Part shown: positions 6,072 through 36,217 of the stretch, one piece after another
Position numbering within the stretch: the first letter of the stretch is position 1
How the letters are laid out: each line of letters starts with the position of its first letter
Assembly (NCBI RefSeq): GCF_021272345.1
Contig: NZ_JAJSDQ010000011.1
Coordinates: forward strand, 1 to 61,917
Direction of reading: 5' to 3'
Source: Ornithinimicrobium sediminis
Lineage (GTDB): Bacteria; Actinomycetota; Actinomycetes; Actinomycetales; Dermatophilaceae
Length of the DNA: 61,917 nucleotides
The notes under the pieces: model-generated
Told to the model about the DNA's origin: nothing
Seen by the model: only the letters and a program-made list of their open reading frames with translations
Databases searched by the model: none
Program-made: the position numbers and the translations under genes

Positions 6072-6176
6072 ATTGCGACTTCGCTCCTTAGTCCGTTGTC
6101 GCTACAACAAACCCCATGACCGCGCTAACCGAACGAAGTTGCCATTCATCCAAAACGCGACTATGGGAACGGGGTA

Positions 6177-6213
6177 GCGATGTGCCCCCGGAGAAGCCGG
6201 GACAGCACATCGC
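6177..6213. terminator. Hairpin between the DUF4352 gene and the lipoprotein gene
   Basis: GCGATGTGC (6177-6185) pairs with GCACATCGC (6205-6213), with a further CCCGG/CCGGG inner stem. It lies 60 bp beyond the stop of the minus-strand gene at 6274-7005 and upstream of the next minus-strand gene, so it is a likely intrinsic terminator. No long T tract is present. Confidence 0.5.
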
Positions 6214-6273
6214 CACCTCTGACAGATCAGCCCAGGGAAAATCGATAAGCACCCCGTCGGTGCATCGCGCGCC

Positions 6274-7005: not shown

Positions 7006-7283
7006 GTTTACACTCGTCTCACGTTGTCTTGGATAGAACGCGACAGCGAAACCCCCCGTCCCCCGTGGTACGCCGGTTCGCACCGCGTGAGTTGGGGTCC
7101 CCTGCCGTGACGATGCTATGTCAAGATGAGTCCGTCGCGGGGGATGCCATGATGCGACAAACCTGTGACTTCTACGACACGTAGCGTCTGGTCGCTACCG
7201 CTCCGGCACGTCGCTGGCGAATTTCGCAAGTCAGGAACGCCTCCATGCAGTGCACCAGTGTGCCGTCGTAGGGGGAAGCTGAT
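7006..7283. other. Intergenic region without a recognised gene
   Basis: This stretch upstream of the DUF4352 gene has lower GC than the rest and presumably carries that gene's promoter (minus strand). No convincing coding frame, RNA gene or repeat was seen. Confidence 0.5.
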
Positions 7284-7493
7284 GTGACATCCGACACGCC
7301 TGGGTCGTTAGCGTCACTGAGGTGCAGCACGAGTGACGTCCGGTTCTCCTACGAACGCGGCAGGGTTGTCCCGGTGATGCCGTTCGTCGGTCGGGCCCGG
7401 GCGGGGGTGCTTGCAGACCTGCTAGAACACGCCCCCACGGTTCCCACGTCCCGCCGCCCGCGCATGGTCACCATCGAGGCGGTCACCGACTGA
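7284..7493 (+). CDS. Small ORF or gene fragment, unknown
   Basis: A 69-codon frame starting at GTG 7284, preceded by AGGGGGAAGCTGAT, a reasonable ribosome-binding site. The C-terminal two thirds (VVPVMPFVGRARAGVLADLL, then RMVTIEAVTD) look protein-like, with an amphipathic helix, but no family is recognised. It may be a real small gene or the remnant of a larger one, since the flanking sequence is otherwise non-coding. Confidence 0.3.
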   Translation: MTSDTPGSLASLRCSTSDVRFSYERGRVVPVMPFVGRARAGVLADLLEHAPTVPTSRRPRMVTIEAVTD

Positions 7494-7895
7494 GGCAAGA
7501 CCAGGCTCTTGCCGGAGTTGCATGTCCGGATGGCGGCGGAGCGTCAGAAGACCCGGTCTACTGTCCTCCGTCGATGGTCGATGGTCGCCTGCCGGAAAGT
7601 CGACGCGCGCTCACGGCTTGCCCACGCCGCGGGTCATCGCCCTAGTCGGCACCGCTTTGGTGCATCTCGGGCCGGTGGCCGCAGCCGACGGCCAGGGCTG
7701 ATCCGGGGCTTGCCCACCTCTGTGGGTTTCCCCGATCCGGCTGCAGCTCGTCGACAGCTCGGCGAACTGGCCCTTTTACAGACTATGCACCTGTCCCCGA
7801 TCTCGGGGCAGCTGACCCGGCGGACGGGGCAGGTGCAGAGGGTAGCGCCAGGCTCGGACGTGCAACCTGGGCTCCGAGATGTCGGTCAGCGCGCC
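7494..7895. other. Intergenic region carrying a palindromic repeat
   Basis: No convincing gene is seen in this 400-bp stretch. It contains the palindromic element at 7786-7838 that recurs at 42356-42408 and lies downstream of the LtaS-like gene. Confidence 0.5.
7786..7838. repeat. REP-like intergenic palindromic element, copy 1
   Basis: An outer inverted repeat (TGCACCTG... with ...CAGGTGCA) encloses an inner hairpin (CCCCGATCTCGGGG) and a central GGGGCAGCTG. The same arrangement with about 75% identity occurs at 42356-42408. Both are intergenic and 3' to genes, which fits a REP/BIME-like dispersed element that may also act as a terminator for the minus-strand gene ending at 7896. Confidence 0.5.
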
Positions 7896-18779: not shown

Positions 18780-19894
18780 TCAAGTCCGCGCTGCGGCGCG
18801 TCGCCACCCCACCCTCAAAGACGAAGAGCCCTCAATGCGATCTGAGAACGCCTTCAGGTAGCGGCGAGCAACCTCGGTGATGGTTGGGTCTTCGTCTTCC
18901 CTGACGGCAGCGTGAACCTCGTGCATGAACGCACCGAATGGGTCTGCTGGGAAGCCCGCACTCAGTAGCTGCGCCCGACAGTCCTTCGCCAGTTGGTCTG
19001 CCTCGTCGTACTTGACTCGCTCGGCTCGCGTGAGCCGAACCCCCAGCAACTTCACGTCATACGGCGCCACCACGCGATCCGCGATCGCTCGCGCAAACCC
19101 GATCGTGTAGACCGACCCACCCCCGAAGTACGTGAGCAACACCTCGATGCCGTCGTCGTTGCGCTCGAAGGTCGCCGTAAGCCCCAGCCGTCGGCGATAT
19201 GTGTCGTGGAGGATGGTTCGCCACTGCCCTGCTCCATACCGGTGGCACTCGTCCGCAATGAGCAGCACACGCCCGTCGGGACGCGTAGGCGGTGAGAGAT
19301 AGAGCGACTGCACCGTCCCGACCAGCACGGAACAGGTGTCGAAGGACGAGCGTTGGCCGTGCCCAATCAGACCGACCCCTTTGATCCCGTGCGCGCTGAG
19401 CGTCTTTTCCCACTGGCGGGTGAGATCAACTGTGGGCACGACGATCACAACGGAGTAGCCGTCCGCGATGGCTTCACGCGTCGCTTCCACGCCCACCCTT
19501 GACTTGCCCGTTCCCGTCACGGCTTCGACAACCCCGTGACGCCCGTGAGCGGCCCATGCATCCAGGGCCTCCACCTGCCACGCCCTCAGGGGTGGACGGC
19601 GCTCGCCAGTGACGACGCTCCAGTTGGGCGCCGGCCTGCCGTACTCAGTGAGCCAGTCCGATCCCTTGCGACTCAGCCGATAGAGACCTGAGGCATCTGC
19701 CACCACCAGCGGCTGCGAGCGGCGTAGTGCAGCTGATGAGCCTGGCCGCAGGTGGTCTCGTCTACCAGTCTCCGAAGTGCCTCGGGCACCACGGGGCCCT
19801 CGTCATCGACGAACGACAGCACTTGCAGCACCCGGTCACGGCACGTCGTCACCTCGAACGAACGCGTCAGGCCCTCGTAGTGGCAAATACTCAT
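18780..19894 (-). pseudogene. DEAD/DEAH helicase, frameshifted and cut by the IS
   Basis: The gene appears to begin at ATG 19894 (preceded by GGGGAGGG) with a winged-helix-like domain (RVLQVLSFVDDEGPVVPEAL). The frame then shifts near 19690-19715, where a one-base insertion or two-base loss moves reading to the frame continuing VVADASGLYRLSRKGSDWL. The ATPase core follows: Walker A VEAVTGTGKSRV, Walker B IADECHRYG, motif III LGLTATFER. The second RecA domain is missing: the frame runs into the IS repeat after FSDRIEG and stops at 18780 inside the element. An open frame starting with GTG 19706 covers the ATPase part. It is very likely inactive. Confidence 0.7.
18807..18830 (-). repeat. Right terminal inverted repeat of the ISL3-type element
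   Basis: Begins CCCCACCCTCAAAGACG; perfect reverse complement of 17352-17375. The truncated helicase gene reads into it from the right. Confidence 0.9.
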
Positions 19895-22243: not shown

Positions 22244-25200
22244 GTGACCGGCCCCGCACCTGACCAGCACTCCCTCCTCGAGGGGCTCTTCGAGAGCCTC
22301 GTCACCGAGGAGCTGGAGCGTCGGCTCCGCACTCGCAGTGACCTCGATGCCCACATCGACGGCGTGGACGCCGCCAACGAGCCGCACGTGCTGGCGCGGC
22401 ACCTGGCCAGGGTCGTGGAGTCCGAGCTCACTCGGCGGCGGAGCCCCGACGACCGGCGCGAGGTGGTCAACGCCCTGCTCGACCTGCTGGAGGCTCCCGA
22501 GGAGCGGCTGACCGGGCAGAGCCGTCAGCTGCTCTCCCTGGTCCGGCCACCCGCACCGGGCGTCCCGTCGCGCAGCACGCACCGCCCCGCCACTCCCCTG
22601 TCCGACGCGGCGCTGCTCACCAACGCGCACGGCGAGCCGAGCATCGGCGCCGAGGTGCGTGCCGAGCTCGCCAGCGCCGACGAGGTCGAGGTCGTGCTGG
22701 CCTTCGTGAAGTGGCACGGTCTGCGCCTGCTGGAGCGCGAGCTGGCCGAGCTGCGCGAGCGCGGCGTGCCCCTGCGGGTCATCACCACGACCTACATCGG
22801 CGCCACCGAGCGGCAGGCCCTCGACCGGCTCGTCCGCGACTTCGGTGCCGAGGTCAAGGTGCACTACGACACGCAGCGCACCCGGCTGCACGCCAAGGCC
22901 TGGCTGTTCCGCCGTGGGACCGGCTTCGAGACGGCATACGTCGGCTCCTCCAACCTCTCCCGCGCGGCGCTGCTCGACGGGGTGGAGTGGAACGTGCGGC
23001 TCTCCTCCGTTGCGACGCCGGGCCTGCTCGCCAAGTTCCGCGCGACCTTCGACTCCTACTGGCACGACCCGGCCTACGAGACCTACGACCCCGACCGTGA
23101 CGGCGACCGCCTCGACGACGCCCTCGTCGAGGCGCGCGGGGGTGGGCGTGGCGGGCGCGTGACCCTGACGCTCTCGGGGCTGAAGGTGCGGCCCTACCCG
23201 CACCAGGCCGAGATGCTGGAGCAGCTCGACGTCGAGCGCCGGGTGCACGACCGTCACCGCAACCTGCTGGTTGCTGCCACCGGCACCGGCAAGACCGTGG
23301 TCGCCGCGCTGGACTACCGCCGACTGGCCGCCGAGGCGGGCGAGCGGCCCACCCTGCTCTTCGTCGCGCACCGCAAAGAGATCCTGGAGCAGTCGCTGCG
23401 CACCTACCGCGAGGTGCTCGGCGACGCCGGCTTCGGCGAGCTGTATGTCGCCGGGGTGCGCCCCGAGCGGTGGCAGCACGTCTTCGCCTCCGTGCAGTCG
23501 CTGACCTCGTACGGCGTGGACCGCATCCCCGCCAACGCCTTCGCCGTCGTCGTCATCGACGAGTTCCACCACGCCGAGGCGACGACCTACCGCCGGCTCA
23601 CTGACCACCTCACCCCCCGCGAGCTGCTCGGGCTCACCGCCACCCCGGAACGTGGGGACGGCAGGGACGTGCGTCAGTTCTTCGGCGGCCGCACCGCTGC
23701 CGAGCTGCGGCTATGGGACGCGCTCGGCGCCGACCTGCTCACACCGTTCCACTACTTCGGCATCGCCGACGGCACCGACCTGCGCCGCGTCGAGTGGCGC
23801 GCCGGGGCCTACGACACGACCACCCTGTCCGGCGTCTACACCGGCAACGACGCCCGCGCCCGCATCGTGCTGCAGGCCGTGCGCGACAAGATCGCCCAGC
23901 CCGACCGGATGAAGGCGCTCGGCTTCTGCGTCGACACGCACCACGCCGCCTACATGGCGCAGGTGTTCAGCGACGCCGGGCTGCCGTCGGTCACGGTGCT
24001 CGGCACCACGGCACTGGCCGCACGTCAGGATGCGCTGGACGACCTGCGTGCCGGGCGGATCGTGGCGATCTTCACCGTTGACGTCTTCAACGAGGGCGTG
24101 GACATCCCCGAGGTCAACACCGTGCTCTTCCTGCGGCCCACCGAGAGCGCCACCGTCTTCCTCCAGCAGCTGGGTCGTGGCCTGCGCCTGGCGCCGGACA
24201 AGGCCGTGCTGACCGCCCTCGACTTCGTCGGCCACCACCGCACCGAGTTCCGCTTCGACCAGCGCTACCGCGCCCTGACCGGCAGCACCCGGGCACGGCT
24301 GCAGCGCGACATCGAGCAGGGCTTCCCGTTCCTGCCCTCGGGCACCCAGATCGTGCTCGACCGACAGACCCAGGCCCTGGTGCTGGCCCACGTCCGCAGC
24401 CAGGTGACGACCCGCTGGGCGCACATCACCGCCGAGCTGCGAGCCCACCCGACCGACGACCTGCAGGCCTTCCTGGCCGAGTCCGGCGTCGAGCCGGCCG
24501 ACGTCATCGCCAAGCCCGACCGCTCCTGGGCCCGGCTGCGGCGCGAGGCCGGGGTGTCCGTGCCCGCCGGCGGCCCGCCCGAGGCACAGCTGCTCAAACG
24601 CGTGCGTGCCCTGGCTCACGTCGACGACCCCGACCGTGCCACGGCATACCTGCGGTGGCTTTCCGACGACGCTCCCGACTACGACCAGGCCGACCCCGCT
24701 GACCGGGCCTTCCTGCGCATGCTCGGCTTCACGCTGTGGCCCGACGGGGGCGGCTTCACCGAATACCAACAGATGGTCGACGCCCTGCGGGCCGAGCCGG
24801 CAGTGCGGCAGGACCTGCGGGCCGTCATCAGGCTGGGTCTGGAGCATGCGCAGCACGTGACCGCACCGCTGGGCGGTGACCTCGGCGCCCGGCCGCTGCG
24901 GGTGCACGCCCGCTACACCCGGGAGGAGGTCGTCGCGGCTCTCGACTACGTCAGCATTGCCGGGCGCAAGGCCAACAGCTTCCGCGAGGGGGTGCTGTAT
25001 GCGGCGGACGCACGCGCCGACGCCTTCCTCGTGACCCTGAAGAAGTCGGAGGCCGACTACTCCCCCACGACGATGTACCAGGACTACGCGGTCAGCCCCG
25101 AGCTCTTCCACTGGGAGTCGCAGTCAGTGACCGCCGTCGCCTCGCCCACCGGGCAGCGCTACATCCACCACCGCGAGCGCGGCAGCCACATCCTGCTCTT

Positions 25201-25366
25201 CGCCCGGGACACCAAGACCACCGACCTCGGCTCGGGAGCGCCCTACCTGTTCCTCGGCGATGCCGACTACGTCAGCCACCGTGGCGAGCGGCCCATCGCC
25301 TTCACCTGGCGGCTGCGCACGCCGATGCCGGTGAGTGTCTTCGAGACGGCCAAGGTCGTGGCCTGA
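22244..25366 (+). CDS. PLD-nuclease/DEAD-helicase/DUF3427 protein
   Basis: A 1040-residue protein of three parts. A phospholipase-D-like nuclease domain (about 110-270) has the HxK motif His216-x-Lys218 (RLHAKAWLF) followed by GSSNLSRAALLDGVEWN. A superfamily-2 helicase core (about 310-690) has Walker A at about 343-352 (VAATGTGKTVV), DEFHH at 439-443, LGLTATPERGDG, and motif VI QQLGRGLRLAPDK. The C-terminal DUF3427-type domain (about 780-1040) ends TPMPVSVFETAKV. This order is known for bacterial helicases with predicted roles in DNA restriction or repair. GTG 22244 is the start. It converges with the tubulin-like operon with only 5 bp between the stops. Confidence 0.88.
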   Translation: MTGPAPDQHSLLEGLFESLVTEELERRLRTRSDLDAHIDGVDAANEPHVLARHLARVVESELTRRRSPDDRREVVNALLDLLEAPEERLTGQSRQLLSLVRPPAPGVPSRSTHRPATPLSDAALLTNAHGEPSIGAEVRAELASADEVEVVLAFVKWHGLRLLERELAELRERGVPLRVITTTYIGATERQALDRLVRDFGAEVKVHYDTQRTRLHAKAWLFRRGTGFETAYVGSSNLSRAALLDGVEWNVRLSSVATPGLLAKFRATFDSYWHDPAYETYDPDRDGDRLDDALVEARGGGRGGRVTLTLSGLKVRPYPHQAEMLEQLDVERRVHDRHRNLLVAATGTGKTVVAALDYRRLAAEAGERPTLLFVAHRKEILEQSLRTYREVLGDAGFGELYVAGVRPERWQHVFASVQSLTSYGVDRIPANAFAVVVIDEFHHAEATTYRRLTDHLTPRELLGLTATPERGDGRDVRQFFGGRTAAELRLWDALGADLLTPFHYFGIADGTDLRRVEWRAGAYDTTTLSGVYTGNDARARIVLQAVRDKIAQPDRMKALGFCVDTHHAAYMAQVFSDAGLPSVTVLGTTALAARQDALDDLRAGRIVAIFTVDVFNEGVDIPEVNTVLFLRPTESATVFLQQLGRGLRLAPDKAVLTALDFVGHHRTEFRFDQRYRALTGSTRARLQRDIEQGFPFLPSGTQIVLDRQTQALVLAHVRSQVTTRWAHITAELRAHPTDDLQAFLAESGVEPADVIAKPDRSWARLRREAGVSVPAGGPPEAQLLKRVRALAHVDDPDRATAYLRWLSDDAPDYDQADPADRAFLRMLGFTLWPDGGGFTEYQQMVDALRAEPAVRQDLRAVIRLGLEHAQHVTAPLGGDLGARPLRVHARYTREEVVAALDYVSIAGRKANSFREGVLYAADARADAFLVTLKKSEADYSPTTMYQDYAVSPELFHWESQSVTAVASPTGQRYIHHRERGSHILLFARDTKTTDLGSGAPYLFLGDADYVSHRGERPIAFTWRLRTPMPVSVFETAKVVA

Positions 25367-25371
25367 CGGTC

Positions 25372-25902
25372 CTAAGCCGAGTCCGGCGGAGTGGCTCGCT
25401 CCTGGCCGTGCGACTCGATGATGTCCTTGGTCCGCATTGCTCGCTCGCTCAGCTTCTCGTTGAAGGTCCTCGTCGCGCGCGGCTGCATGCCGTCCTGCAC
25501 ACGAGTCTTGACCATCATGTGCACGCGAGTGAAGGGCCCGCCCAGGGGCTCGACGCGCACACCGAAGAAGACCGGTGTCTCCGAGGTAAGGGTGCGGATG
25601 GCGTAGAAGTCGCCCTCCCGCGACTCGATGATCTCCTCGACGACGCCCACGATCTCGCCGCTATCGAGACGTGCCAGGCTGCAGACCCACCCCCCGACCC
25701 CCTGAGGAGTCCCTGGCACGTGAAACGCACGGACACACGAGCGACCCACCAAGACTTCGCTCTGCGGTGAGGCCACGAACTTCCAGACCTGCTCGGGGGA
25801 GGCGTGGATGTCCTCCCACACTCCGACGTCGAGCTCGACGCCTTCCAAGGAGCTCTGCGAGCGACGCTCCCACCGGTCTTCGAGCCGCGACATCAAGCCC
25901 AC
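25372..25902 (-). CDS. SRPBCC (START-like) domain protein
   Basis: A 176-residue protein with the SRPBCC fold: ...VGVWEDIHASPEQVWKFVASP at the first strand and helix, a middle GGWVCSLARLDSGEIVGVVEEI and a long C-terminal helix with TRTFNEKLSERAMRTKD. SRPBCC proteins bind hydrophobic ligands in a closed cavity. GTG 25902 is preferred because AGGAAGGGA lies 6 nt upstream; ATG 25893 is an alternative. It follows the two-TM protein by 57 bp on the same strand and is probably the last gene of the tubulin-like operon. Its ligand and role there are unknown. Confidence 0.7.
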   Translation of the reverse strand: MGLMSRLEDRWERRSQSSLEGVELDVGVWEDIHASPEQVWKFVASPQSEVLVGRSCVRAFHVPGTPQGVGGWVCSLARLDSGEIVGVVEEIIESREGDFYAIRTLTSETPVFFGVRVEPLGGPFTRVHMMVKTRVQDGMQPRATRTFNEKLSERAMRTKDIIESHGQERATPPDSA

Positions 25903-25959
25903 TGCGGTTCCCTTCCTGTGTCCTGGAAACAAACCGATCCCACTGCCGCGTGATGCCTT

Positions 25960-28767
25960 TCAGTTCCAGACGTTCGGGTCATCCTCTGCCTCAACCTTTG
26001 CACCCTCGACCTTCGACTTGGCACCAGCATGCGTGAACGCTTCGACATGACTCGCAGAGCACCGACCTGAAAGGTCAACCCTCATCGCGATGCGGCCCAT
26101 GGCCCGGCCGACGTCGACCGATGGGAGCCCGCTGGTGTCGTGAACGGGCAGCCAGACGAGTGATCGATCTAGGAGATGCTTGGACCGCAACTGCCCGTCG
26201 GGCGTCCAGAAGTCAATGACGAACGGCGTCGCGGACCTCAGACTGACGCGATAGAAGTCCTCGTCCGGTATTTCGTGACCATCACTGAACTGTCCCTGAC
26301 GTTTGACCAGCAAGGGGGCCAACCTCACGTCCTGACGGTCGACGGCCTCCCGCAGTTGGCGTACGTACTTAAGCGACGCCTCAGCACGCGGACGCCCGTC
26401 GCGCAGGAAGGCATGCAGCTCGCGCCGGGGGCTCGCCTTGTTGGTGAGTTGGTCTGCGTCTATCAGGGCGGCGGCTTGCCCCCGTGACCGTCGAGTCTCC
26501 GATATGAAGACATCGAAGGCATCGTCCCACTGCTGTTCTAGGAAGCCAGGTGGGCAGAGCACATTCACAGCACGGGTGAGCACCTGCGTCCCAAAGTCCT
26601 CATTGCCGGGCTCGGCGCTCCTGGCCAACGCCACGGCAGCCGGGAGGCGTTCCACCTCTGCTGGATCAAGGTCAGGCTCGCGTGGATTCAACGGCGCCCA
26701 CGGCCGGTGGACTACCTCGGCCAGGATGGGAGCCCACAGCATGAGGCCGCGGTAACGGTTCTCCCACCAGGTGACGTCACGCCGGGCGTTGACGAGCTCT
26801 TCTGCCATATGTCGACGCTGATGAATGGCGTCTAGCGTCTGCTTCCGGTAGCGCAGGTCAGCCTTGAAGTAGCGGTGGTTCGCGAAGGCGACGAGGCCAA
26901 TGAACACGATGACCACCACACCTAGCCACGTCAACCCTTCCTGCCATGTGAGCGTGTCTGTGACCACCAGACCGGTCAAGACCGCGACTGCCACCACGAT
27001 GAATGCGACGGCGGACCGCCACCCCAGAAGCAAGCGCCGGTATGCAGCACGCAGAGTCTCGACTGCCTTACCGCCCATGTGCTCTTCGGTGGCCTCCAGC
27101 TTCGCCCGCTTGTCCTGAGCGGCCGACAGTCGCCCAGCCACTTCGTCGGCCATCATCCACAGTAAGGTTCCCCGACGCCGTTCAACCCACGCCTGCACTT
27201 GCCGCCGCGTCGGAGCAGCCGGCTCTGCGTCTGCCACGTTGGTCGATTCAAGGTCGCCCCTCATGTCAGCGGGGCGCGCCCCACCAGTCGAGTGCTTGCG
27301 ATCCGCGGCTTCACCCTTCTGGTTCCGCTCCGCGTCCATCTGGTCTTCCTGTGGAGAGCCGCCCGCCTGTGACTCGGCTGGCTGTTCTTGGCGATCCTCG
27401 GGCACGCGGTACTTGTGGCGGTGCAGTTCCAGGACATCCACGATCCCGATCAGGTTGTCTTCGATCCGCAACGTGTCATCCGGCTCAGGGACCACCATAT
27501 GTGGTGGGACGACATCGACCAGGGACGACGAGCCTTCGGGTCGGATGGCGTCGGGCAAGGGTCCACCATCGATCAGGGCGAGTGCGACACGCCGAAGATC
27601 TCGCCAGGTCTCAGCCAGGGGTGCGTCCGACTCCAGCCCCTCGTCCTGCAGCAGCTCACCCAGAGTGCGTTCTGCCTGCGAGAACTGCTCGTCGCTGAGG
27701 GCCACGAGGTGGGGAGGGTCATGAGGTCGCAGAGCGACACTGATGTCAGTGCCTTCTCCAACCAGCTGGGTGGTCAGCCTCCGCTCCACGGAGCGCTCGC
27801 CTCGGCGGACCATCCAACCCCAACCGGACTTGAAGAGTCGCAGGTTGTAGACGACAGCACCCGAGGCGACATCGGCTGCCCCACGTCGCTCCGCGCCATC
27901 ACGCACCGGGAACCGCGTTGGTGGCCGCACCCAGTTGTGACTGCTCAGGATGCGCTCAGTTGCAGCAGTGGTCATGTCAGTCGGTTTCGCTGCAGGGTGG
28001 GCCCAGTCCAGATAGTCGACGACTCCACTGTCTGCGATAGTCGCGAGCACACGCGCCGCAAGCTGCTCTACACGATCGGCTCCGATCACTGCCCGGACCG
28101 TGGGACGCATGACGTAGAGATCGCCTTGAGAGGTGGTCGAGTCGGAGTTGAGCGTGTCGACCGCACCACTGGGCACGCCCAACCAGAGTCCGGCTGTGGC
28201 GCAGATGGCGTTGACTGCATGCCCGACATAGTTCTCGTCGTGACGGACGAAGATGCTCGCTCGGTCCACGTCGGGGCGGTCCTCGGGAGAGACCACCACA
28301 TTGACCTCCCAGTCCGGTCGCAGGATGGAGTCCGAAAGATCAGTCACACCGCTGGCCGGCACAACCAGCTTGACTTTGTGAAGGTGTGTCCCCAGATCGT
28401 CCTCGCCGGTCGCCAAGGGGAGGACCGCTTTGAGCGCCTCGGCGACCACGCTGGCTGCATCGTCGAGGAGCAGCTGCTCGCTATGCTCCGACTCACTCAG
28501 ATGGACGACTACGAACCGCACCCACGACAGCCGGTGCAGCCCGACCAGGGTGAAGAGGTCGTTCGACTCAAGGCCTTCCGCGGAGACGTGCACACCGGTG
28601 ACCCGGGCAGGTCCGGGTAGTGAGTGATCCACCGCCGAAGGGCGGAGCCACACCGAGGGTCTCAGCAGCCCGGCACGTGCCCAGGCTGCGGACGCGGCAA
28701 GGATCTCGTCTCCCACCGCGCCGTCGCCCAGTAGCACGACGGAAAGGTCTTCGGCGATCAATTCCAC
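25960..28767 (-). CDS. Two-TM protein of the tubulin-like operon, C-terminal DDPNVWN
   Basis: A 935-residue protein with no recognised domain. The N-terminal region (1-455) begins with a Gly-rich VVLLGDGAVGDEIL turn and alternates strands and helices; 456-520 is a charged low-complexity linker; two transmembrane helices (about 584-604 and 612-630) are separated by a tiny loop; the C-terminal 300 residues are cytoplasmic. The last residues are DDPNVWN, nearly the same as the DDPGVWN end of the upstream tubulin-like protein, but coded by different codons. Its GTG start lies within the last codons of the tubulin-like gene (10-bp overlap), so translation is coupled. It is likely the membrane adaptor of the system. 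Confidence 0.75.
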   Translation of the reverse strand: MELIAEDLSVVLLGDGAVGDEILAASAAWARAGLLRPSVWLRPSAVDHSLPGPARVTGVHVSAEGLESNDLFTLVGLHRLSWVRFVVVHLSESEHSEQLLLDDAASVVAEALKAVLPLATGEDDLGTHLHKVKLVVPASGVTDLSDSILRPDWEVNVVVSPEDRPDVDRASIFVRHDENYVGHAVNAICATAGLWLGVPSGAVDTLNSDSTTSQGDLYVMRPTVRAVIGADRVEQLAARVLATIADSGVVDYLDWAHPAAKPTDMTTAATERILSSHNWVRPPTRFPVRDGAERRGAADVASGAVVYNLRLFKSGWGWMVRRGERSVERRLTTQLVGEGTDISVALRPHDPPHLVALSDEQFSQAERTLGELLQDEGLESDAPLAETWRDLRRVALALIDGGPLPDAIRPEGSSSLVDVVPPHMVVPEPDDTLRIEDNLIGIVDVLELHRHKYRVPEDRQEQPAESQAGGSPQEDQMDAERNQKGEAADRKHSTGGARPADMRGDLESTNVADAEPAAPTRRQVQAWVERRRGTLLWMMADEVAGRLSAAQDKRAKLEATEEHMGGKAVETLRAAYRRLLLGWRSAVAFIVVAVAVLTGLVVTDTLTWQEGLTWLGVVVIVFIGLVAFANHRYFKADLRYRKQTLDAIHQRRHMAEELVNARRDVTWWENRYRGLMLWAPILAEVVHRPWAPLNPREPDLDPAEVERLPAAVALARSAEPGNEDFGTQVLTRAVNVLCPPGFLEQQWDDAFDVFISETRRSRGQAAALIDADQLTNKASPRRELHAFLRDGRPRAEASLKYVRQLREAVDRQDVRLAPLLVKRQGQFSDGHEIPDEDFYRVSLRSATPFVIDFWTPDGQLRSKHLLDRSLVWLPVHDTSGLPSVDVGRAMGRIAMRVDLSGRCSASHVEAFTHAGAKSKVEGAKVEAEDDPNVWN

Positions 28768-31700
28768 ACCCCGGGATCGTCCCCTGCAGTGACCGACTCT
28801 GTTGCGCGGATCAGGTCATGCAAGGCGTTGATGATGTCGTGACGAAGGTCGTAGGCACTCGGTACGTCCAGTGGTTCGTCGGGCCTCTTCTGCAGGAAGA
28901 AGCCCTCGTAGGCGACCGTGAGTTTACGGAAGCTGTCGATGACTTCGTTCTTGCGCTGCTCCCAGTCTGGGTCCGGCGCTCCGGACTGTCCCATCAGGAT
29001 CCAGTTGCGCAGTTCGGGATTGAGGTCGTCGTAGTTCTCCACTCCACCACTGCCAGACTTCCCGAGCTCGCGTAGTCGGGTGTAAGGCGCCATGGGCCTG
29101 AGGCTGGCGGAAGTGTTCACCTCGACCATGGCGAGCAGGATTGACTCCAGTACGACGGGGAGGTACTGCTGCGGCGGGATCGTTGACCCGGTGAGCAACG
29201 GCTCTGGGAATGGTAGCCAGGACCCCTCGCCCCGGGCGCTCGACTGGAAGATGGTTGCGCTGCCGTCAGCGAGGGTCAGCTGCTTGAGCCGGCTCGCCGT
29301 GAACCAGCCCCTGATCATCGCCTGCCTGATGCTGGGGGACATGGGCAAGCTTTCCGCCAGCGGCCGCGCTCGACGCCAGCGCCAGAACTCCTGGATCAGG
29401 TCAGACGTGGTGTTGCGCCGCCCCCACTCGCGGGCCACGGGTTGCATGAGGCTGTCGAACACAACGGGCTCGAAGGGTCGGTTGAGGGTGGCAAACATGT
29501 CGATAAAGGACTGGCCGCCTTCCCCGAAGGCACGCTCGACTTCAGCGGACCACTGACCCCTGCTCTGCAGGACCTTCTGGACGACCTCCCTGGCCGGGCT
29601 CCGCTCGGCGAACGGAATCTCACTGAACCGCACCGACGAGCGCGGCTCGGCCTCCTCATGTACCTGAACCAGGACCTGTGGATTAATCTTGACCAAGGGG
29701 GCTGAGGCGTTGAGTGCGGCAATGAGCGCGCCTTCGAATCGTTGGAGTCGATCGGCATGCACGGAAGGATCGACCCCTTCGGGCGAGAGATAGCCGGCGA
29801 GGTTCTCAGCCATGTAGCGGCTCATGGCAGTGCCGCCTTCCACCAGCCAGGTGTCGGCACGCCTGAGAAGGTGGTCCCCAGATGCCAAGACCTCGAAACT
29901 GGCGATGGCAGGCGAGTCGACAGCGGCCACTTGGCTCTGCGGAACCCAACTGCTGCTGCGCTGAATGAACCGCTGTTCGCTACCAGCGGCGGGCTCTCCT
30001 GTGAGAATCCCCTGCACCACCTGGTCCATGGCCGTCGTGCGTTGGTCGGTCCCCATCGTGCGCTTGACGAGGTCTTCGAGTATCTGTGGGTACTCCAAAG
30101 TCTTCGCGAGCAGGAACTCGTTAGGCGCCTCGGCCAAACGGCCCGGAACGATATCGCCGTCGGGCCAGTCGCTGATGCCGTGCTCGCCCGCACTCGGGGA
30201 CGCCAGCTCCTCCTGCTCCAACCGACGGACAGCGAACCGCAGCGACTGCTCGAGCGGCCGTAGGACCCCGCTGACCAGATCTGGGACCAAGTCCGCTGCC
30301 AGCTCACGAAGTTCCGCCTCGGCGTGAAGGTGCATAGCCTCGGCAGCCGCCCTCGTGCCCTTGCGGATGACAGGGTTGTCTGGCAGCAGCCGATCGGCGT
30401 CGACGTCGAGTGCCTTGGAGACCTCGGACATCCCGTCGTTGGCCCAGCGAGCGTACTTCTGTGCTTCGGCGCGCATCTCGTCGGCGACCACCTCCATCTC
30501 AACGACAAGCCGCTGAAGGAGCAAGACCGTGACCGGTCCGCCGACACTCGCGGCTTGCTGTGCGACCTGGGTCACGACACGACCCTGGATCTCCTCAACC
30601 CAGCGCACGGCATTCTCGCGACGGCCCTCGCTGATGGTGTGCAGGTAGGCAGCGCGTCGGTCACGTTGAGCCCGCTGGATGCGGTTGCCTACCTCACCTG
30701 CCGGCTCACCCTTCGTGCCCATGTTCTTCTGCACCTGCTCGAAGATCGCCTGCTCAGTGGCTTTCGATGTGTCGACCGCACTGGCAGGACGAAGAGCATC
30801 GATGATGTCGTTGTGAGCCTCGGTCCGCTCGTCTAGGCCGGAGTGCGCAAGGAAGCGAGGGAAGACACGGTCGGCCGACTCCTGGGCGAGCAGGTGGTCG
30901 CTGCGATCGTCGCCTTCCTTCCGAGTGTCGAGGTGACGACGCAAGAAGCGTTCTACGGCCGCTCGCGCCAGCCGCTCGCTGGCGTACTGGCGGAAACGGT
31001 CACGGCCAAGGCCCACGCGGGAGGAGCCCAACGCTGAGAACGGCGTCTCCGTGCCTTGAACATGCAGCGGCATGTGGTCCACCAGCGAACTGGCAGCGGA
31101 CGACCAGTTGCCCTGCAAGTAGGCCGTGATGCGGTCCTGCAGCTCCGGACTGGCGACCCAGGCGCTGATGGACCGGCCCATGGCGCGGTAGATGTCATTC
31201 TGGGTGCTGTAGGAGACGTACTCGTTGCGATTCCCCACTAGGAAGGGGTACCGCGGCCCGAGCCGGTTGGCAGCCCCGACCTGTACGCCCTTCATCGCAA
31301 GCAGGCTGGCGGTATCTTCTGAGGGGCCGTCGCTGTTCCAGTACCCAGCGAGCAGCTCCCCCAGCGTGGCCAGCGAGTTAGGACGCACTCCCTTCCGGTG
31401 CTCCTCGGGGAGGTAGTCGAAGACGTCGGGGGCGTACATCAGACCGAGTGACTCCGAGGCCCACGTGTCTCCGAGCGCCCGGATCGCATCGCACACGTCG
31501 ATGACCGCGCCTGCGCCACTACCACCGGCGATCGACGAGATCACGATGACCGTCGGATCGGCCATCAGCGGGCTGGCCTCACCCCCGAGCAACTGGGTGA
31601 GTCGTTGCAGCTCGCCGATAACCTCGGTGCCGGTGAGTGCCCTCTTCGCATCGTCGAGAGCGACATGGATCTTGTCTAAGCCCGTCAGTGTCACCATCCG

Positions 31701-32069
31701 ACCGATCGCCCGGAACTGGCCCGCGCCCTTACTCACGGGGATATTCACCTTGTTCGGATCCGGCCGCCACGTGCAGAGCGCATCCTTGGCCACGTCACTG
31801 GCGCCACCACTGAGGGTCGCATCTAGCGTGCGGTAGGTAAGGCCCGGGCCCACCAAGCCGGTGTAGTCACGACTGGGAAGCTGCCTCGGCAGGTCGGACT
31901 CCGCCCCGTCGGCCGATGTCGGCACGTCCACGTTGACGAACTGCCACGCCTTGGGGAGGTCGTCCTTCCATCCTGCCTGCTGGAGCCGACGCAGCAGCTC
32001 CTCTCGCACCACCCGCAGAGTCTTGCCCCCGGAACCGCCGACACCGACAAGCAGAAATGGTCTAAGCAC
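28758..32069 (-). CDS. Very large tubulin/FtsZ-superfamily protein (Tubulin_2-like)
   Basis: A 1103-residue protein. The N-terminal Rossmann-type GTPase part shows LLVGVGGSGGKTLRVV (residues 6-21) and the tubulin signature IAGGSGAGAVIDV (180-192), the counterpart of GGGTGTG in FtsZ. Large helical regions follow, with no transmembrane segment. It resembles the long FtsZ-like family (Pfam Tubulin-like, PF13809) that comparative genomics has placed with vWA proteins in a predicted membrane-remodelling system. The C-terminus is DDPGVWN, repeated in the next protein. GTG 32069 is the start with AAGGAGAG just upstream. Whether it binds GTP or polymerises is untested. Confidence 0.85.
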   Translation of the reverse strand: MLRPFLLVGVGGSGGKTLRVVREELLRRLQQAGWKDDLPKAWQFVNVDVPTSADGAESDLPRQLPSRDYTGLVGPGLTYRTLDATLSGGASDVAKDALCTWRPDPNKVNIPVSKGAGQFRAIGRMVTLTGLDKIHVALDDAKRALTGTEVIGELQRLTQLLGGEASPLMADPTVIVISSIAGGSGAGAVIDVCDAIRALGDTWASESLGLMYAPDVFDYLPEEHRKGVRPNSLATLGELLAGYWNSDGPSEDTASLLAMKGVQVGAANRLGPRYPFLVGNRNEYVSYSTQNDIYRAMGRSISAWVASPELQDRITAYLQGNWSSAASSLVDHMPLHVQGTETPFSALGSSRVGLGRDRFRQYASERLARAAVERFLRRHLDTRKEGDDRSDHLLAQESADRVFPRFLAHSGLDERTEAHNDIIDALRPASAVDTSKATEQAIFEQVQKNMGTKGEPAGEVGNRIQRAQRDRRAAYLHTISEGRRENAVRWVEEIQGRVVTQVAQQAASVGGPVTVLLLQRLVVEMEVVADEMRAEAQKYARWANDGMSEVSKALDVDADRLLPDNPVIRKGTRAAAEAMHLHAEAELRELAADLVPDLVSGVLRPLEQSLRFAVRRLEQEELASPSAGEHGISDWPDGDIVPGRLAEAPNEFLLAKTLEYPQILEDLVKRTMGTDQRTTAMDQVVQGILTGEPAAGSEQRFIQRSSSWVPQSQVAAVDSPAIASFEVLASGDHLLRRADTWLVEGGTAMSRYMAENLAGYLSPEGVDPSVHADRLQRFEGALIAALNASAPLVKINPQVLVQVHEEAEPRSSVRFSEIPFAERSPAREVVQKVLQSRGQWSAEVERAFGEGGQSFIDMFATLNRPFEPVVFDSLMQPVAREWGRRNTTSDLIQEFWRWRRARPLAESLPMSPSIRQAMIRGWFTASRLKQLTLADGSATIFQSSARGEGSWLPFPEPLLTGSTIPPQQYLPVVLESILLAMVEVNTSASLRPMAPYTRLRELGKSGSGGVENYDDLNPELRNWILMGQSGAPDPDWEQRKNEVIDSFRKLTVAYEGFFLQKRPDEPLDVPSAYDLRHDIINALHDLIRATESVTAGDDPGVWN

Positions 32070-32124
32070 AGTCTCTCCTTTGTTTGGCCCTCATCACCGC
32101 TGCGTGAGGGATAGGGACGATGAG

Positions 32125-34800
32125 TTACTCGTCAAAGATCGATCGTGGCCGGTCCGGAGGCTCTTCCTTCTGATCGCGTCCGGCAGAGTCGCCGCGACCA
32201 GAGGTAGGCCGGTCCCAATGGCCCGACGACGCCGGCCGCCCTTCGTCGGCCTCACTTGCATCGTCGTCCCAGAGCGACTGTGGTGGCCTCTCGGAACCGC
32301 GCTCAGCTTCAGTCCCAGTTGCAGAGACGTTGCCCGCCGGAACTACGGCTTCGTCACCCGCCGAGCCGGGTTCCATCTCGACCAGGGTGGTGTGGAGCTC
32401 GTGCCAGCCCGCGAACTCTGTCAGCATCTGACGGCGCCGGTCTATCACTCCGGTCAGGTTTGGGTCGTCCTCGTCGACGACATACAGCTGAGCCTCCACA
32501 TAGCCATCCTCATCTTGAAGCGGGCTGGCCAGCAGGAAGAAGACGTCACGCAGGTCCTTCTGTGCCGGCGCGGAGCGTCCTTGCTGAGCGGTATAGGGGG
32601 GCACGTTGCTGAGCAGAACACGCTCGTCGACGGTGTGACGCGCCTCGAACCGAGGCTCCCCCAACAACCAGACGGGAAGTCGGCGACGGAGCGTCAGGGG
32701 ACCGATCACCAGCCGACTTCGTCGCTGAGTCTTGCCCAGTCGGAGCCCTTCGAAGTCATCGAGTGTCAAGATGTCCGGCCTTGACTGCGGCTGGACACCA
32801 GTAGGCCCGAGACGGACCCTCGAGGACGCCCACACCGTCCGCGGTCCGACCATGAACGTCCCATTGACAAGGTTCGCCACGAGGGTGATCAAGAGCGGGA
32901 TAGCAAGCGCAACCGCGACGAACATGACCACCAGGGTCCATCGAGTCGTCTCGTTGATCGGCCGGACCATCGAGGCCTCGAAGGGCACACCCACGGTGAC
33001 CTCACCTGCACCATCGACCTCCGACAGCACCAAGTCGACTGTCCCGTCGATGCGTCCGTCCGCGGGAGCGGCCGGGATGATTTCGACGGGCCACTCCACT
33101 ACCGACTCCGCCGGAACAGTGATGCAGTCCTCGGCAAGGATCACGCCCACATCACCAGCGAGCTCCGGTGCCTCTACGGCAACGTTACCGACGCAGGCGC
33201 GGCTTTCACCGCGTTCGCTGCCTCGGAGCTGCAGGACACCACGGGACGTGCCCTCTCCGACAATCGTCGGAAGAACGAGCTCGGCCGTCTCAACCGTGGC
33301 ATACGAGGGCGGCAGCACCGAGCGGACACGCGCAGCGGCGGTGATGGGTCCAAGCGCCACGCCCGTCGGGCTGCTTACTGCCTCCGCCCGAGCCACCACG
33401 TCGAGCGTCGAAGGAACCTCGTCGAGCGGCAACGCATGCTCCCCAACCAAGTTACCGTCGTCAGTTGCGCTCAGAGCTACAGGTGTGCCGTCGACCTCCA
33501 GGATCACAGACAGAGACTGGTAGAGAGATGCATCAACAGGGGTACCATCCGCAAATTGAACGCTGACCTCGACTGCCGAGCTCTCTCCGACGACCAATCC
33601 GTCAGGAGCCGCAATCTGAAGGGTGGCGCCCCAGAAGTAGTAAAGATCGACAACCGTGATGCTGTCGAGGGTGGCGCGGGTATCCAGCACCCACCCTCCC
33701 CCTTCGGAGCCGCCTGAGTCGAAGGTCACTGTCGCGACCGTCAGGCCCTCGCGCACCGTCACGCTGAGTGAGGCATCGCGGAACCCTTCGGATTGGCTAC
33801 CGAGGGGCTGCGACGTCCCGTTGGGAGCAATGATGGTAGGCGGTATCTCAGGGTCGACCCCATCGAGGACCAAGCGGAAACCACTCAGGCCTGCGTCGAC
33901 AGGCACTGCGAACTCTCCCTCGACGCATTCCGAGCCAGGACAGGTCGTGCTGCCTGCCTGCTGTCCACCCTCCAGCAGGGTGCCGGCGCCCGCAAAGACC
34001 CGTTGGAGAGCGCCGGCATCGGTGGCGCGCAGATAGGCACCAGAGGCAAAGTTCTCCGGGATGGGCGTTGTCCCGCACTGGGTCTGATCCGCGCGACCCT
34101 CCGCGACTGCCCTCAGCAGGTCGGCATCCTCCGCGCTCACAGCGGTGCTTCCCTCGTCAGCGAAAAGTGCGAGTGCCACGACGGCGATCTGGTCACCGCG
34201 CACGCTGTCCGCGATGCCCTGAGGGTCGCAGAGGTCTGCCTGAGCGGTCTCCGTCGCATCACCGACGTCAAGTCGACCGTCTGTGAACCACAGGATCACC
34301 TTGCAGGCTTCGTCGTCCACCTGCGCGGCTCGTCCTTCGAGTGACGTCTGAGCCCCACCCAGAGCAACGCGGTAGTCGGTGTAGGCTCCGGCGTTGCGCG
34401 TGGGCAACTCCTGCTGTGCCGCTGCGCGTAGCCGGTCCGGCTGGTCGTCGCTCAAAGACCCCCACTGCACGAGTGGCAGGTGGCTGCCATCGAACACAGC
34501 GAGATCCACCTGTACGTCGAGCTGGTCACCAGCCGACTCGCGGAGGGAGGTCAGCGCGTCAACAGCAGTTTCAACCGCAACGACGCGCTCATTCTCCGGG
34601 TCCGTTGTCCGCAGGCTGCCCGATTGGTCCACCACCACGGAGACCAGCAGCGTCTCGGACGACGAGACGCACGCGGCGACATCGGCAAAGGCTCGCTCGC
34701 CGATCTCGGACAGCTCACTTTGGGCATGGCCCGAGGGGACCACGAACACTAAGGCCGCCACCAGGGCAAACGCGGCAGCGAGCCGACTCAGGACTCTCAT
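32125..34800 (-). CDS. Secreted vWA protein with single membrane anchor and cytoplasmic tail
   Basis: An 891-residue protein: signal peptide (1-26, ending GHAQ), vWA domain (about 48-270) with an intact MIDAS Asp58-x-Ser60-x-Ser62 (VVVDQSGSL), several extracellular beta modules (about 300-615), a transmembrane helix (about 621-645) and a cytoplasmic tail of some 240 residues. The tail holds two related peptides: SERPPQSLWDDD (about 836-847) and RPRSIFDE at the very end (884-891). The former is almost the same as SERPQSLFDDD in the HNH protein. ATG 34800 overlaps the stop of the small membrane protein (ATGA). It could sense extracellular ligand and dock to a cytoplasmic partner, most likely the tubulin-like protein encoded next. 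Confidence 0.82.
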   Translation of the reverse strand: MRVLSRLAAAFALVAALVFVVPSGHAQSELSEIGERAFADVAACVSSSETLLVSVVVDQSGSLRTTDPENERVVAVETAVDALTSLRESAGDQLDVQVDLAVFDGSHLPLVQWGSLSDDQPDRLRAAAQQELPTRNAGAYTDYRVALGGAQTSLEGRAAQVDDEACKVILWFTDGRLDVGDATETAQADLCDPQGIADSVRGDQIAVVALALFADEGSTAVSAEDADLLRAVAEGRADQTQCGTTPIPENFASGAYLRATDAGALQRVFAGAGTLLEGGQQAGSTTCPGSECVEGEFAVPVDAGLSGFRLVLDGVDPEIPPTIIAPNGTSQPLGSQSEGFRDASLSVTVREGLTVATVTFDSGGSEGGGWVLDTRATLDSITVVDLYYFWGATLQIAAPDGLVVGESSAVEVSVQFADGTPVDASLYQSLSVILEVDGTPVALSATDDGNLVGEHALPLDEVPSTLDVVARAEAVSSPTGVALGPITAAARVRSVLPPSYATVETAELVLPTIVGEGTSRGVLQLRGSERGESRACVGNVAVEAPELAGDVGVILAEDCITVPAESVVEWPVEIIPAAPADGRIDGTVDLVLSEVDGAGEVTVGVPFEASMVRPINETTRWTLVVMFVAVALAIPLLITLVANLVNGTFMVGPRTVWASSRVRLGPTGVQPQSRPDILTLDDFEGLRLGKTQRRSRLVIGPLTLRRRLPVWLLGEPRFEARHTVDERVLLSNVPPYTAQQGRSAPAQKDLRDVFFLLASPLQDEDGYVEAQLYVVDEDDPNLTGVIDRRRQMLTEFAGWHELHTTLVEMEPGSAGDEAVVPAGNVSATGTEAERGSERPPQSLWDDDASEADEGRPASSGHWDRPTSGRGDSAGRDQKEEPPDRPRSIFDE

Positions 34801-35132
34801 CGCGCCAGCTCAGTCGCGACGACGAACGCGTGCCAGACCGCCGCCAACAGACCCAAGACCATAGCCGCGACCGCCAAGCGGTCATAGGCGTAGCGTGGAT
34901 CGAAGTACCGCGTGCTGCGTCTGGTCTCGTCGCGAAGGTAGCGATGCGCGCTAACCGCAAGGGGGGTCAGCACGCCTCCGAGGGTGTAGCCGACGATTGC
35001 CAACCCAAATGAGTCTGGATCCGTCGTGTCGGTCGCCAGTCCTGCTAGGACAACAGCAGCCAGCGCACAGAACGCCGCGAGGACGGACGGCCAGAGCGGC
35101 GCACGGCGCGTTACAACGTCGGACTTAGTCAT
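34797..35132 (-). CDS. Small three-TM membrane protein of the tubulin-like operon
   Basis: A 111-residue protein with three hydrophobic helices (about 15-32, 40-60 and 87-105) and a basic loop HRYLRDETRRSTRYFDPRYA between the second and third. No family recognised. ATG 35132 has GGAAGGGG upstream; the longer frame to 35183 lacks one. Its stop overlaps the vWA start by 4 bp, tying it to the operon. Confidence 0.7.
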   Translation of the reverse strand: MTKSDVVTRRAPLWPSVLAAFCALAAVVLAGLATDTTDPDSFGLAIVGYTLGGVLTPLAVSAHRYLRDETRRSTRYFDPRYAYDRLAVAAMVLGLLAAVWHAFVVATELAR

Positions 35133-35191
35133 GGATTCCCCTTCCGCGGCACACAGTAGGCCACCCCACCGACACTCGGTCAACCGGAACG

Positions 35192-36217
35192 TCAGTCACC
35201 GAGCAGGCTCTTGTCCGACGCGTCACAGCCCAGGATCAGGTCCGTGAGTGCCCTTCTCTCGGAACCCGTCACCGCCACACCGTAGGTGTCCTTGACCCAC
35301 ACCACCTGGAGAGCGAAGCCGCAATGTGCAGTGTCCGCGGGCGGCAGCCAGCCGGTGACGTCGAGGCTTCCCTTGGTCATGTTGACCTCACCGAAGGTGA
35401 CGACAAGATTCTCGGGGTCATTGGCGAATCGCTCACGCCGCTCGCGGGGCCATGCCGAAGCGCCTTTATTCCAGGCATCGGCGAGCGCCACGATGTGGTC
35501 CACGTGCAGCTGCCCGGCGTTGCCAGCCCCGCGCTCGAACTCGAACGCCCCACCGGAGTAAGGATCAACGAAGGTGCCCACCGCCGCGACACACCCCTGA
35601 GTGCCCTCCCGAACGACGAGATCCGAGAGGTCGCGTCGCAGCATGTCGTTGCGCGTGTCGCACCCGTTCCGATCCGTGTCGAGCCACTCCTGGCCGAAGG
35701 CTTCGCGGTCGTAGGGAGGCGCACGGGGAAGCGCAGCCGCGGACGGAAGCCGTTCGACCGCGTCAAGGGGGTCCCACAGTGGATCGATGTCGGCCAGCGC
35801 CTGGGGGGCCACCAGATTCGTGGAAGGCGCTGCCGCCTCGGCGTCGGGAGTGGATGGCTTGGCCTCTGATGCCGAGGTTTCGGAGTCGAGCACTGATTGC
35901 TCCGGGGTGGTCGGCGTCGGTTGACTCAGCCCTGAAGGGTCCGACTCAACGGCCTGCTCTTTTACAGTGACCCGATCAGCGCCGCGGAGCCCTCCGCCCT
36001 GGGCCTCATGAAGCAACCACGCCCACCCGAGGAGGCTCCCAACAATGATGAGGCTGATCACGAGAGCGATCAGCCGGGCACTGAAGCGTGGACTCCTGCG
36101 CGAGACTTCAGGCTCTCGCGTGTCATGGTCGTCGTCGAAGAGCGACTGTGGACGCTCGGACTCCCACGAGATCGAGGGTTGGTCTGCCCCGTCCCCCTTA
36201 CCCATGTCATCCATCAT
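35192..36217 (-). CDS. Membrane-anchored HNH nuclease (DUF1524/GmrSD-type)
   Basis: A 341-residue protein: acidic cytoplasmic start containing SERPQSLFDDD (residues 20-30), one transmembrane helix (about 46-68), a disordered Ser/Thr/Pro/Glu-rich linker and an extracytoplasmic HNH domain: HVDHIVALADAWNKGASAWP (Asp240-His241), FANDPENLVVT, NMTKGSLD, GWLPP. The pattern is that of actinobacterial secreted HNH proteins (VDHxVxLxxAWxxGAxxW). The inside-first orientation follows from the positive residues before the helix (SRRSPRFSAR). Start 36217 (MMDDMGKGDG) is chosen because the upstream in-frame stretch is AT-rich and non-coding in character. It is the first gene of the tubulin-like operon, and would put a nuclease on the outer membrane face. 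Confidence 0.75.
   Translation of the reverse strand: MMDDMGKGDGADQPSISWESERPQSLFDDDHDTREPEVSRRSPRFSARLIALVISLIIVGSLLGWAWLLHEAQGGGLRGADRVTVKEQAVESDPSGLSQPTPTTPEQSVLDSETSASEAKPSTPDAEAAAPSTNLVAPQALADIDPLWDPLDAVERLPSAAALPRAPPYDREAFGQEWLDTDRNGCDTRNDMLRRDLSDLVVREGTQGCVAAVGTFVDPYSGGAFEFERGAGNAGQLHVDHIVALADAWNKGASAWPRERRERFANDPENLVVTFGEVNMTKGSLDVTGWLPPADTAHCGFALQVVWVKDTYGVAVTGSERRALTDLILGCDASDKSLLGD

Follow-up and report, generated by a model that had tools for sequence, protein, structure and literature searches.

A long tubulin-like gene, accompanied by genes for a von Willebrand factor A (vWA) protein and a membrane-anchored HNH nuclease, raises the question of what kind of complex such genes might build and what would hold its parts together. 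The genes lie at 25372-36217 of a 61,917-nt stretch of contig NZ_JAJSDQ010000011.1 from Ornithinimicrobium sediminis (hereafter the window, to which coordinates refer unless given with a locus number), where an earlier sequence-only reading had described six minus-strand genes; all six open reading frames are present at the positions claimed. We name the products HNH, small, vWA, TUB (the tubulin-like protein), 2TM (a protein with two transmembrane (TM) segments) and SRPBCC-like (Table 1), and number related loci with the prefix L. The main outcome of our comparison is that TUB and 2TM end in short peptide tags that match within a locus and differ between loci, beside a slot in which, judging by sequence, the nuclease is exchangeable with a trypsin-like protease.

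A scan of GTDB contigs with an alignment of eight TUB proteins gave 170 relatives; the 80 best were retained and 16 further stretches were added. Profile searches identified 66 loci with all four of the families small, vWA, TUB and 2TM (duplicates L046, L047 and L104 excluded), and in 63 of these the genes follow the order small-vWA-TUB-2TM on one strand; in the other three the reading frames appear to be overextended at their 5' ends. Clustering of these genes is far beyond chance, and the gene-order search proposed in the sequence-only reading shows the four-gene core recurring across many actinobacterial genera. The relatives include Cellulosimicrobium, Georgenia, Occultella, Subtercola, Rathayibacter, Microbacterium, Mycobacterium, Williamsia, Kutzneria, Nesterenkonia and Acidimicrobiia. 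The records at L060, L064, L065 and L083 carry the labels Luminiphilus, Bifidobacterium breve and Planococcus; their operons are typical of actinobacteria, and the records are probably mislabelled or misbinned. Relatives of TUB occurred in no phage record and in 2 of 72,556 plasmid records (Rhodococcus, about 30% identity with 70% covered).

The loci fall into two branches. A sister branch of 29 loci, 18 of them mycobacterial, has, after 2TM, a GAP1-N2 protein, a second protein about 700-820 residues long, or both; the second protein has no Pfam family and is taken from its place and length to be an FNIII-HRDC protein. No homologue of the protein between 2TM and GAP1-N2 at the sister loci is present in the window. 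The remaining 57 loci, including the window, have neither GAP1-N2 nor the 700-820-residue protein in the DNA examined, and for 18 of these window-type loci the placement is less sure because less than 4 kb is available on one side. GAP1-N2 likewise had no match in the whole genome from which the window comes, and membership of the window in a GAP1-N2 system was rejected on both counts. Pfam assigned no GTPase family to the six module proteins, a statement that holds for these proteins alone as no DO-GTPase search was made of the remaining genome. TerD genes adjoin the sister-branch operons at L116 (465-5817), L119 and L121, with a TerC-family gene also present in L116.

Inspection of the protein ends showed that TUB and 2TM are alike in their last six or so residues within a locus and unlike between loci (VWN/VWN, REFL/REFL, DSGV/DTGV, EPLL/EPLL), and this agreement was then tested. 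Both genes were complete in 73 of 97 sequences, the other 24 being dropped, and for the main test clades were drawn at ≤50% TUB identity, each being represented by a single locus (n = 24). The BLOSUM score over the last four residues was 8.25 for same-locus partners and -2.9 (standard deviation 1.1) for permuted partners, with none of 5000 permutations scoring as high, and thresholds of 45, 60 and 90% identity left the result unchanged. The last residue was identical in 75% of same-locus pairs compared with 11% across loci. By position, the excess peaked at -5 and from -1 to -3, was smaller at -4 (67/5000) and -6 (48/5000), and had vanished from -7 to -20. No comparable matching of ends was found in eleven other gene pairs, the lowest value being 111/5000 for TUB/vWA at a looser threshold. 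The same codon was used in 29 of the 58 matched tag residues. On a 71-row FastTree tree, which has long branches, the last residue changes 22 times in TUB, 20 times in 2TM and only 24 times when the two are counted jointly.

Eight loci that had been dropped from the main test have a readable end in the place of 2TM and served as a held-out set. In five of them (L070, L078, L081, L099, L107) 2TM appears as two frames and in three (L074, L079, L102) it had been missed by the profile. Seven of the eight ends agree with that of TUB, the last residue being identical in six and V/I in L107. Permutation gave 0-5/20000 for all eight and 22-28/20000 for the six that remain without L102 (66% identical to L074) and L099 (whose end had been among those inspected before the test). 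Altogether 2TM appears as two adjacent or overlapping frames at seven loci (the five above, L066 and L068) and the tag is on the second frame in four of the seven, namely L070, L081, L099 and L107, where the first-frame end does not agree with TUB. At the distant Tubulin_2 loci L030-L033, L035, L036, L038 and L041 no matching of tags was seen by eye.

Structural models bear on how such tags might be presented. TUB was modelled by AlphaFold at a mean pLDDT of 92, and its only stretch below 50 is residues 1099-1103; 2TM was modelled at a mean of 83, with low-confidence stretches at 1-3, 209-212, 486-514 and 918-935. Because both ends are disordered in these models, the tags are probably free peptides. 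Foldseek gave two matches for TUB at E ≤ 1e-3, FtsZ (6.8e-4) and a tubulin, and the 50 matches listed were all FtsZ or tubulin entries or assemblies; the AlphaFold secondary structure after the FtsZ-like domain is long and mostly helical. For 2TM there was no Foldseek match at E ≤ 1e-3 in PDB and BFVD, and sequence searches of PDB with TUB and 2TM profiles returned weak helical or membrane matches only.

Upstream of this core in the window, the prediction of an outward-facing, membrane-anchored HNH nuclease was supported, a single TM segment being followed by a GmrSD_C domain. In an alignment of 18 the nuclease motifs DH, NDP and NxxK are kept, C299 and C331 are invariant and C209 is nearly so. 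The protein is the only GmrSD_C match in its own genome, and such matches are scarce, numbering 15 in total over 16 genomes searched. Among window-type loci an HNH gene lies within the flanks in 18 of 57, or in 17 of 39 when each side is required to extend at least 4 kb; in the sister branch it does so in 2 of 29. In the window the gene precedes the core on the same strand; in Occultella, Georgenia and Williamsia it is upstream in divergent orientation, and in Cellulosimicrobium, Clavibacter, Rathayibacter and others it is downstream. The sequence-only reading had held that the linkage would be incidental if the genes occurred together only in close relatives and the HNH gene was not co-conserved; instead, the gene is co-conserved over several genera with varied positions and orientations. 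At L056 and L060 it lies more than 1 kb from the core and may be incidental, and the Williamsia gene is separated from the core by about 1 kb that includes a TerD gene.

At four loci (L066, L073, L075, L076) a trypsin-like protein with an N-terminal tail and one TM segment is encoded directly after 2TM, at a distance of 3-18 bp. L079 combines trypsin and HNH domains in a single protein, 66 bp after a divergent gene in the place of 2TM, and a divergent trypsin gene adjoins the distant locus L035. At L039 (4587-7838) 2TM is itself joined to a trypsin-like domain, the sole fusion of core and hydrolase that was noticed. These arrangements indicate that HNH occupies a variable slot, exchangeable with a tethered trypsin-like protease.

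A second, moderately supported likeness concerns the cytoplasmic tails of vWA and of the enzymes, which appear to share locus-specific motifs. In the window the vWA motif SERPPQSLWDDD and the HNH motif SERPQSLFDDD have a best 8-mer score of 39, shuffled sequences reaching at most 36 (0/5000), and vWA ends resembling RPRSIFDE recur in related loci (PPSLFDD, PPSIFD, SIWDD). Elsewhere the motifs held in common by vWA and enzyme tails are PPPPPPR (Occultella, Clavibacter), DPF (Williamsia), GPPS (L075) and LFGG (L035). With HNH and trypsin loci pooled, the similarity gave 4-42/20000 for 8 loci (one per clade) and 0-3/20000 for 13 loci. The test took 9 of 20 HNH loci, seven having no clear single N-terminal tail (L042, L043, L056, L060, L070, L081, L106) and four being near relatives of loci used (L045, L094, L096, L121). 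The likeness of the vWA tail to that of small weakens with stricter filtering of redundant loci, the values being 0-4/5000 at n = 43, 49-221/5000 at n = 24 and 677-906/5000 at n = 15.

How does this locus relate to systems already described? Makarova and Koonin described the FtsZl1/Tubulin_2 proteins in 2010, when they had no known function, and predicted a role in membrane remodelling from genomic context (PMC2875224); our searches of the open-licence PubMed Central (PMC) literature found no test of such a protein. The link to their FtsZl1/vWA system drawn in the sequence-only reading is upheld: TUB has a Tubulin_2 domain with the FtsZ/tubulin fold, a helical region and a vWA protein in its operon, and shares with the published family an N-terminal FtsZ-like domain with a helical C-terminal part, a vWA partner with signal peptide or TM segment and further uncharacterised TM proteins (PMC2875224). 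The module differs in having no P-loop GTPase, protein kinase or OmpA-type gene, and the main text of that paper mentions no nuclease, protease or trypsin; no description of matching end tags was found in it.

Closer kin are found in the actinobacterial tubulin theme of the GAP1-N2 GTPase-centric conflict systems predicted by Kaur et al. in 2020 (PMC7159879), where a tubulin is fused to a helical domain and a membrane-bound vWA protein has a beta-rich domain. GAP1-N2 loci of mycobacteria, Williamsia and Pseudarthrobacter have a small-vWA-TUB-2TM core homologous to that of the window, the difference being that GAP1-N2 is missing from the window's genome. The core and the sister branch were already known from genomics, and the window system is a variant. 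In the text of Kaur et al. on actinobacterial tubulin systems we found no description of the 2TM protein, the end tags or an outer hydrolase slot; their SLATT is a different two-TM domain, which Pfam does not find in 2TM. Planctomycete GAP1-N2 systems have GYF-trypsin proteins, and in System 3 of the same authors, likewise predicted to act in conflicts, a NucA (HNH-superfamily) nuclease and a trypsin-like peptidase occur together or fused, often with TM segments (PMC7159879). System 3 thus shares the partnership of an HNH-kind nuclease with a trypsin-like protease, sometimes in one protein as at L079, and differs in that the window-type nuclease is of the GmrSD_C/DUF1524 family, the enzymes are mostly alternatives and they stand beside a tubulin/vWA core. 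The pairing of nuclease and trypsin therefore has precedent, and its link to the tubulin core was not found described in the parts of the open-licence PMC literature consulted. The GmrSD type IV restriction enzyme has a C-terminal HNH domain of the same GmrSD_C/DUF1524 family, whereas here the domain is on a single-TM protein and predicted outside; GmrSD membership, which would call for a GmrSD_N (DUF262) part and an enzyme inside the cell, is not supported, as no GmrSD_N was found and GmrSD_C, behind the TM segment, is the only match above the Pfam cut-off. Matching TUB/2TM tags were reported in none of the open-licence PMC papers searched, supplementary tables not being covered, and are apparently new. 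The 2020 sister systems, the exchangeable slot and the matching ends had all been absent from the sequence-only reading.

We consider it about an even chance that the module builds a tubulin-scaffolded membrane complex with lineage-specific peptide tags and an exchangeable outer hydrolase, for which conflict or defence is the likeliest role. In such a complex TUB would be a cytoplasmic scaffold of the tubulin superfamily, presumably polymerising, and 2TM, small and vWA would sit in the membrane according to their predicted topology, the vWA domain outside as a likely sensor or ligand-binding head. As TUB and 2TM end in the same short, probably free peptide, one receptor site could take either or both, acting as a bridge if the receptor is oligomeric or as a switch if TUB and 2TM compete for docking. 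A receptor for a peptide that varies by lineage would have to vary with it and is hence probably encoded in the operon, the candidate readers being the cytoplasmic domain of vWA, TUB, or 2TM itself. A common reader changing together with both ends is the simplest account of their joint change. Eukaryotic Hsp70 and Hsp90 carry a common EEVD C-terminal docking tag, and the likeness lies in a pair of distinct proteins whose shared C-terminal peptide can be read by one adaptor; EEVD is conserved, whereas the TUB/2TM tags change between lineages with both partners following. The hydrolase, an HNH nuclease in the window and a trypsin-like protease elsewhere, would be anchored with its enzyme domain outside and may be recruited through the tail motif it has in common with vWA. 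We favour an envelope-level conflict or defence machine on three grounds: the module is patchily distributed, its enzymes are exchangeable, and it is akin to the conflict systems predicted by Kaur et al. (PMC7159879). More tentatively, two separate and rapidly diversifying peptide codes could operate in actinobacteria, one between the C-termini of TUB and 2TM and one between the tails of vWA and hydrolase, insulating a given copy from foreign ones and making the slot exchangeable in a system otherwise like polymorphic conflict systems, with the effectors displayed outside.

Gene set, gene order, tag matching and exchangeable enzymes can be read from the sequences themselves; several observations nevertheless weigh against the proposed complex. 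For the tags, independent pairs were so few that the sign tests could not reach 0.05; TUB and 2TM have mismatched ends at the complete loci L040, L066, L069 and L091 and at the held-out L078; and at L068 the first-frame end is mismatched and the second-frame end merely similar. Docking of the tags is absent from the AlphaFold models and no domain was identified as a tag reader. As regards the slot, many window-type loci have neither an HNH nor a trypsin neighbour, and the fused trypsin domain of L039 would be cytoplasmic by the hairpin topology. The tail test was post hoc, used only enzymes with a single clear N-terminal tail and dealt with proline-rich tails, and with HNH alone at ≤60% identity it was not significant (n = 4). 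The vWA and HNH motifs of the window are also alike in DNA, so that a recent copy of one of them is possible. A role of the tag as a genome-wide sorting signal was considered separately and is unsupported: in the window's own genome the pattern of W-D/N before TGA, preceded by a codon with middle T, occurs in four places, these being TUB, 2TM and two short frames that are not gene-like, the pattern being limited to TGA stops and some codons.

Of the other explanations, membrane remodelling holds up best, although we regard it as unlikely. Polymers of TUB under the membrane, together with the vWA/TM partners, would shape vesicles or protrusions and the enzyme would be cargo or a by-stander, as would suit the Tubulin_2 fold, the partners, the long helices and TM hairpin of 2TM and the published genomic-context argument (PMC2875224). 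However, neither Pfam nor Foldseek found a membrane-bending domain or fold, and remodelling, compatible as it is with an exchangeable outward hydrolase and lineage-specific tags, leaves both unexplained.

Somewhat less probable again is that the matching ends serve as signals for degradation or processing, read by a single protease or modifying enzyme that keeps TUB and 2TM in step. Disordered C-termini with a hydrophobic or aromatic last residue resemble C-degrons or PDZ-type ligands. The ends of TUB and 2TM are disordered, their last residue is often hydrophobic or aromatic and matching is restricted to the last six residues; a housekeeping protease, however, would favour a single conserved tag where these vary by lineage, and the four-gene core has no protease apart from the L039 fusion. 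A nutritional or DNA-handling surface complex, in which a cytoplasmic scaffold clusters a tethered enzyme that digests extracellular polymers for uptake, seems improbable to a slightly greater degree: the enzymes are indeed hydrolases predicted to face outward, but the core has no transporter, and the exchange of nuclease for protease and the absence of the module from 30 other genomes of the genus fit conflict systems better. It is very hard to credit that the tags match through effects at the level of operon DNA (translational coupling, ribosome-binding sites or gene conversion) and not through protein function. TUB and 2TM do often overlap or abut, and in the window the DNA of the vWA and HNH motifs is similar, but the genes after 2TM vary between loci, half of the matched residues have different codons and other gene pairs of the operon have no comparable matching.

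Table 1 Positions of the module genes and of their peptide motifs in the window
Feature	Position	Strand	Basis
HNH: cytoplasmic N-terminal tail, one TM, GmrSD_C/DUF1524 nuclease domain predicted outside	35192-36217 (longest ORF to 36448)	-	Pfam PF07510
HNH cytoplasmic tail motif SERPQSLFDDD	36128-36160	-	Sequence comparison with vWA tail
small: TM protein, core family	34797-35183	-	Profile matches beside vWA in most loci; TM scan
vWA: probable signal peptide, outer vWA domain with DQSGS MIDAS-like motif, TM ~623-641, cytoplasmic domain and tail	32125-34800	-	Pfam VWA_2, TM scan
vWA cytoplasmic tail motif SERPPQSLWDDD	32260-32295	-	Resembles HNH tail motif
vWA tail motif 2, RPRSIFDE, extreme C-terminus	32128-32151	-	Sequence; similar ends in related loci
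TUB, 1103 aa, Tubulin_2 (FtsZl1): tubulin-like domain residues 6-372, long mostly helical C-terminal part	28758-32069	-	Pfam PF13809, AlphaFold, Foldseek
TUB C-terminal tag DDPGVWN	28761-28781	-	Covariation with 2TM C-terminus; residues 1099-1103 pLDDT<50
2TM, 935 aa: N-terminal alpha/beta domain, TM hairpin ~585-629, long helices, C-terminal domain	25960-28767	-	AlphaFold, hydropathy scan
2TM C-terminal tag DDPNVWN, matching the TUB tag	25963-25983	-	Permutation test; residues 918-935 pLDDT<50
SRPBCC-like gene, likely passenger	25372-25932	-	Weak Pfam match; absent from other loci examined

The genes are tightly packed, with two of the three overlaps claimed in the sequence-only reading present (10 bp between 2TM and TUB, 4 bp between vWA and small) and the third not found. 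The other junctions measure 55 bp (TUB/vWA) and, depending on the start codon, 8 or about 59 bp (small/HNH) and 27 or about 66 bp (2TM/SRPBCC-like). Among the six proteins Pfam matched Tubulin_2 (E 3.8e-54), VWA_2 (7e-7) and GmrSD_C/DUF1524 (5.9e-9), and no family above cut-off for 2TM or small; no PADLOC 2.0.0 family, and hence no gene model of a known anti-phage defence system in that collection, matched any of the six. A simple hydropathy scan gave an N-terminal hydrophobic stretch and one TM segment in vWA, one in HNH, the hairpin in 2TM, three hydrophobic stretches in small, and a single weak one within the tubulin domain of TUB. The SRPBCC-like protein, which had been counted as part of the system, matches Polyketide_cyc2 at 5e-4, under the family cut-off, and recurs at no other locus examined; it was rejected as a component and is probably a passenger. 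Other membrane protein genes are found near small. A UPF0114 gene directly precedes it in L069 (6099-6677), with a similar gene in L091 (6075-6674), and in the mycobacterial L034 (14614-15805) two membrane proteins are encoded upstream of it, one a DUF4190 protein whose N-terminal tail has DPF repeats, as do the vWA and small tails of that locus.

The sequence-only reading had also taken the module for an acquired one with lower GC than the flanking genes; low GC and a patchy distribution are borne out. Its G+C content is 0.647 compared with 0.713 in the 15 kb to the left and 0.730 in the 25.7 kb to the right, only 1 of 256 equal-length windows across the 62 kb being lower, and the content at third codon positions is 0.72-0.79 in the four larger genes compared with 0.93-0.94 in the next two genes to the right. 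None of 30 other genomes of the genus (three less than 90% complete) had a Tubulin_2 match. Acquisition is the simplest reading, loss in the other genomes being possible. No empty site could be drawn, since in genomes of the genus the methyltransferase and type IV restriction genes that flank the module do not lie side by side. A second low-GC patch of about 0.63 lies at roughly 5000-8000. On the plus strand, at 22244-25366 and ending 6 bp from the module, is a Type IV methyl-directed restriction-type helicase (PADLOC mREase_IV, 1156 bits), probably an independent neighbour because it is present in 16 of 31 genomes of the genus. A second match to the mREase_IV helicase profile lies at 18780-19706 on the minus strand (E 6e-70), and matches also occur near L081 and L086.

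For the FtsZl1/Tubulin_2 family the tags would be short, swappable peptides that predict binding partners, offering a direct handle on these proteins. If the tethered enzymes are effectors, the loci would represent a class of cytoskeleton-scaffolded surface conflict systems. If they are not, there is still rapid joint evolution of two C-termini toward a probably common site, which may help to locate the reader and could supply orthogonal docking pairs.

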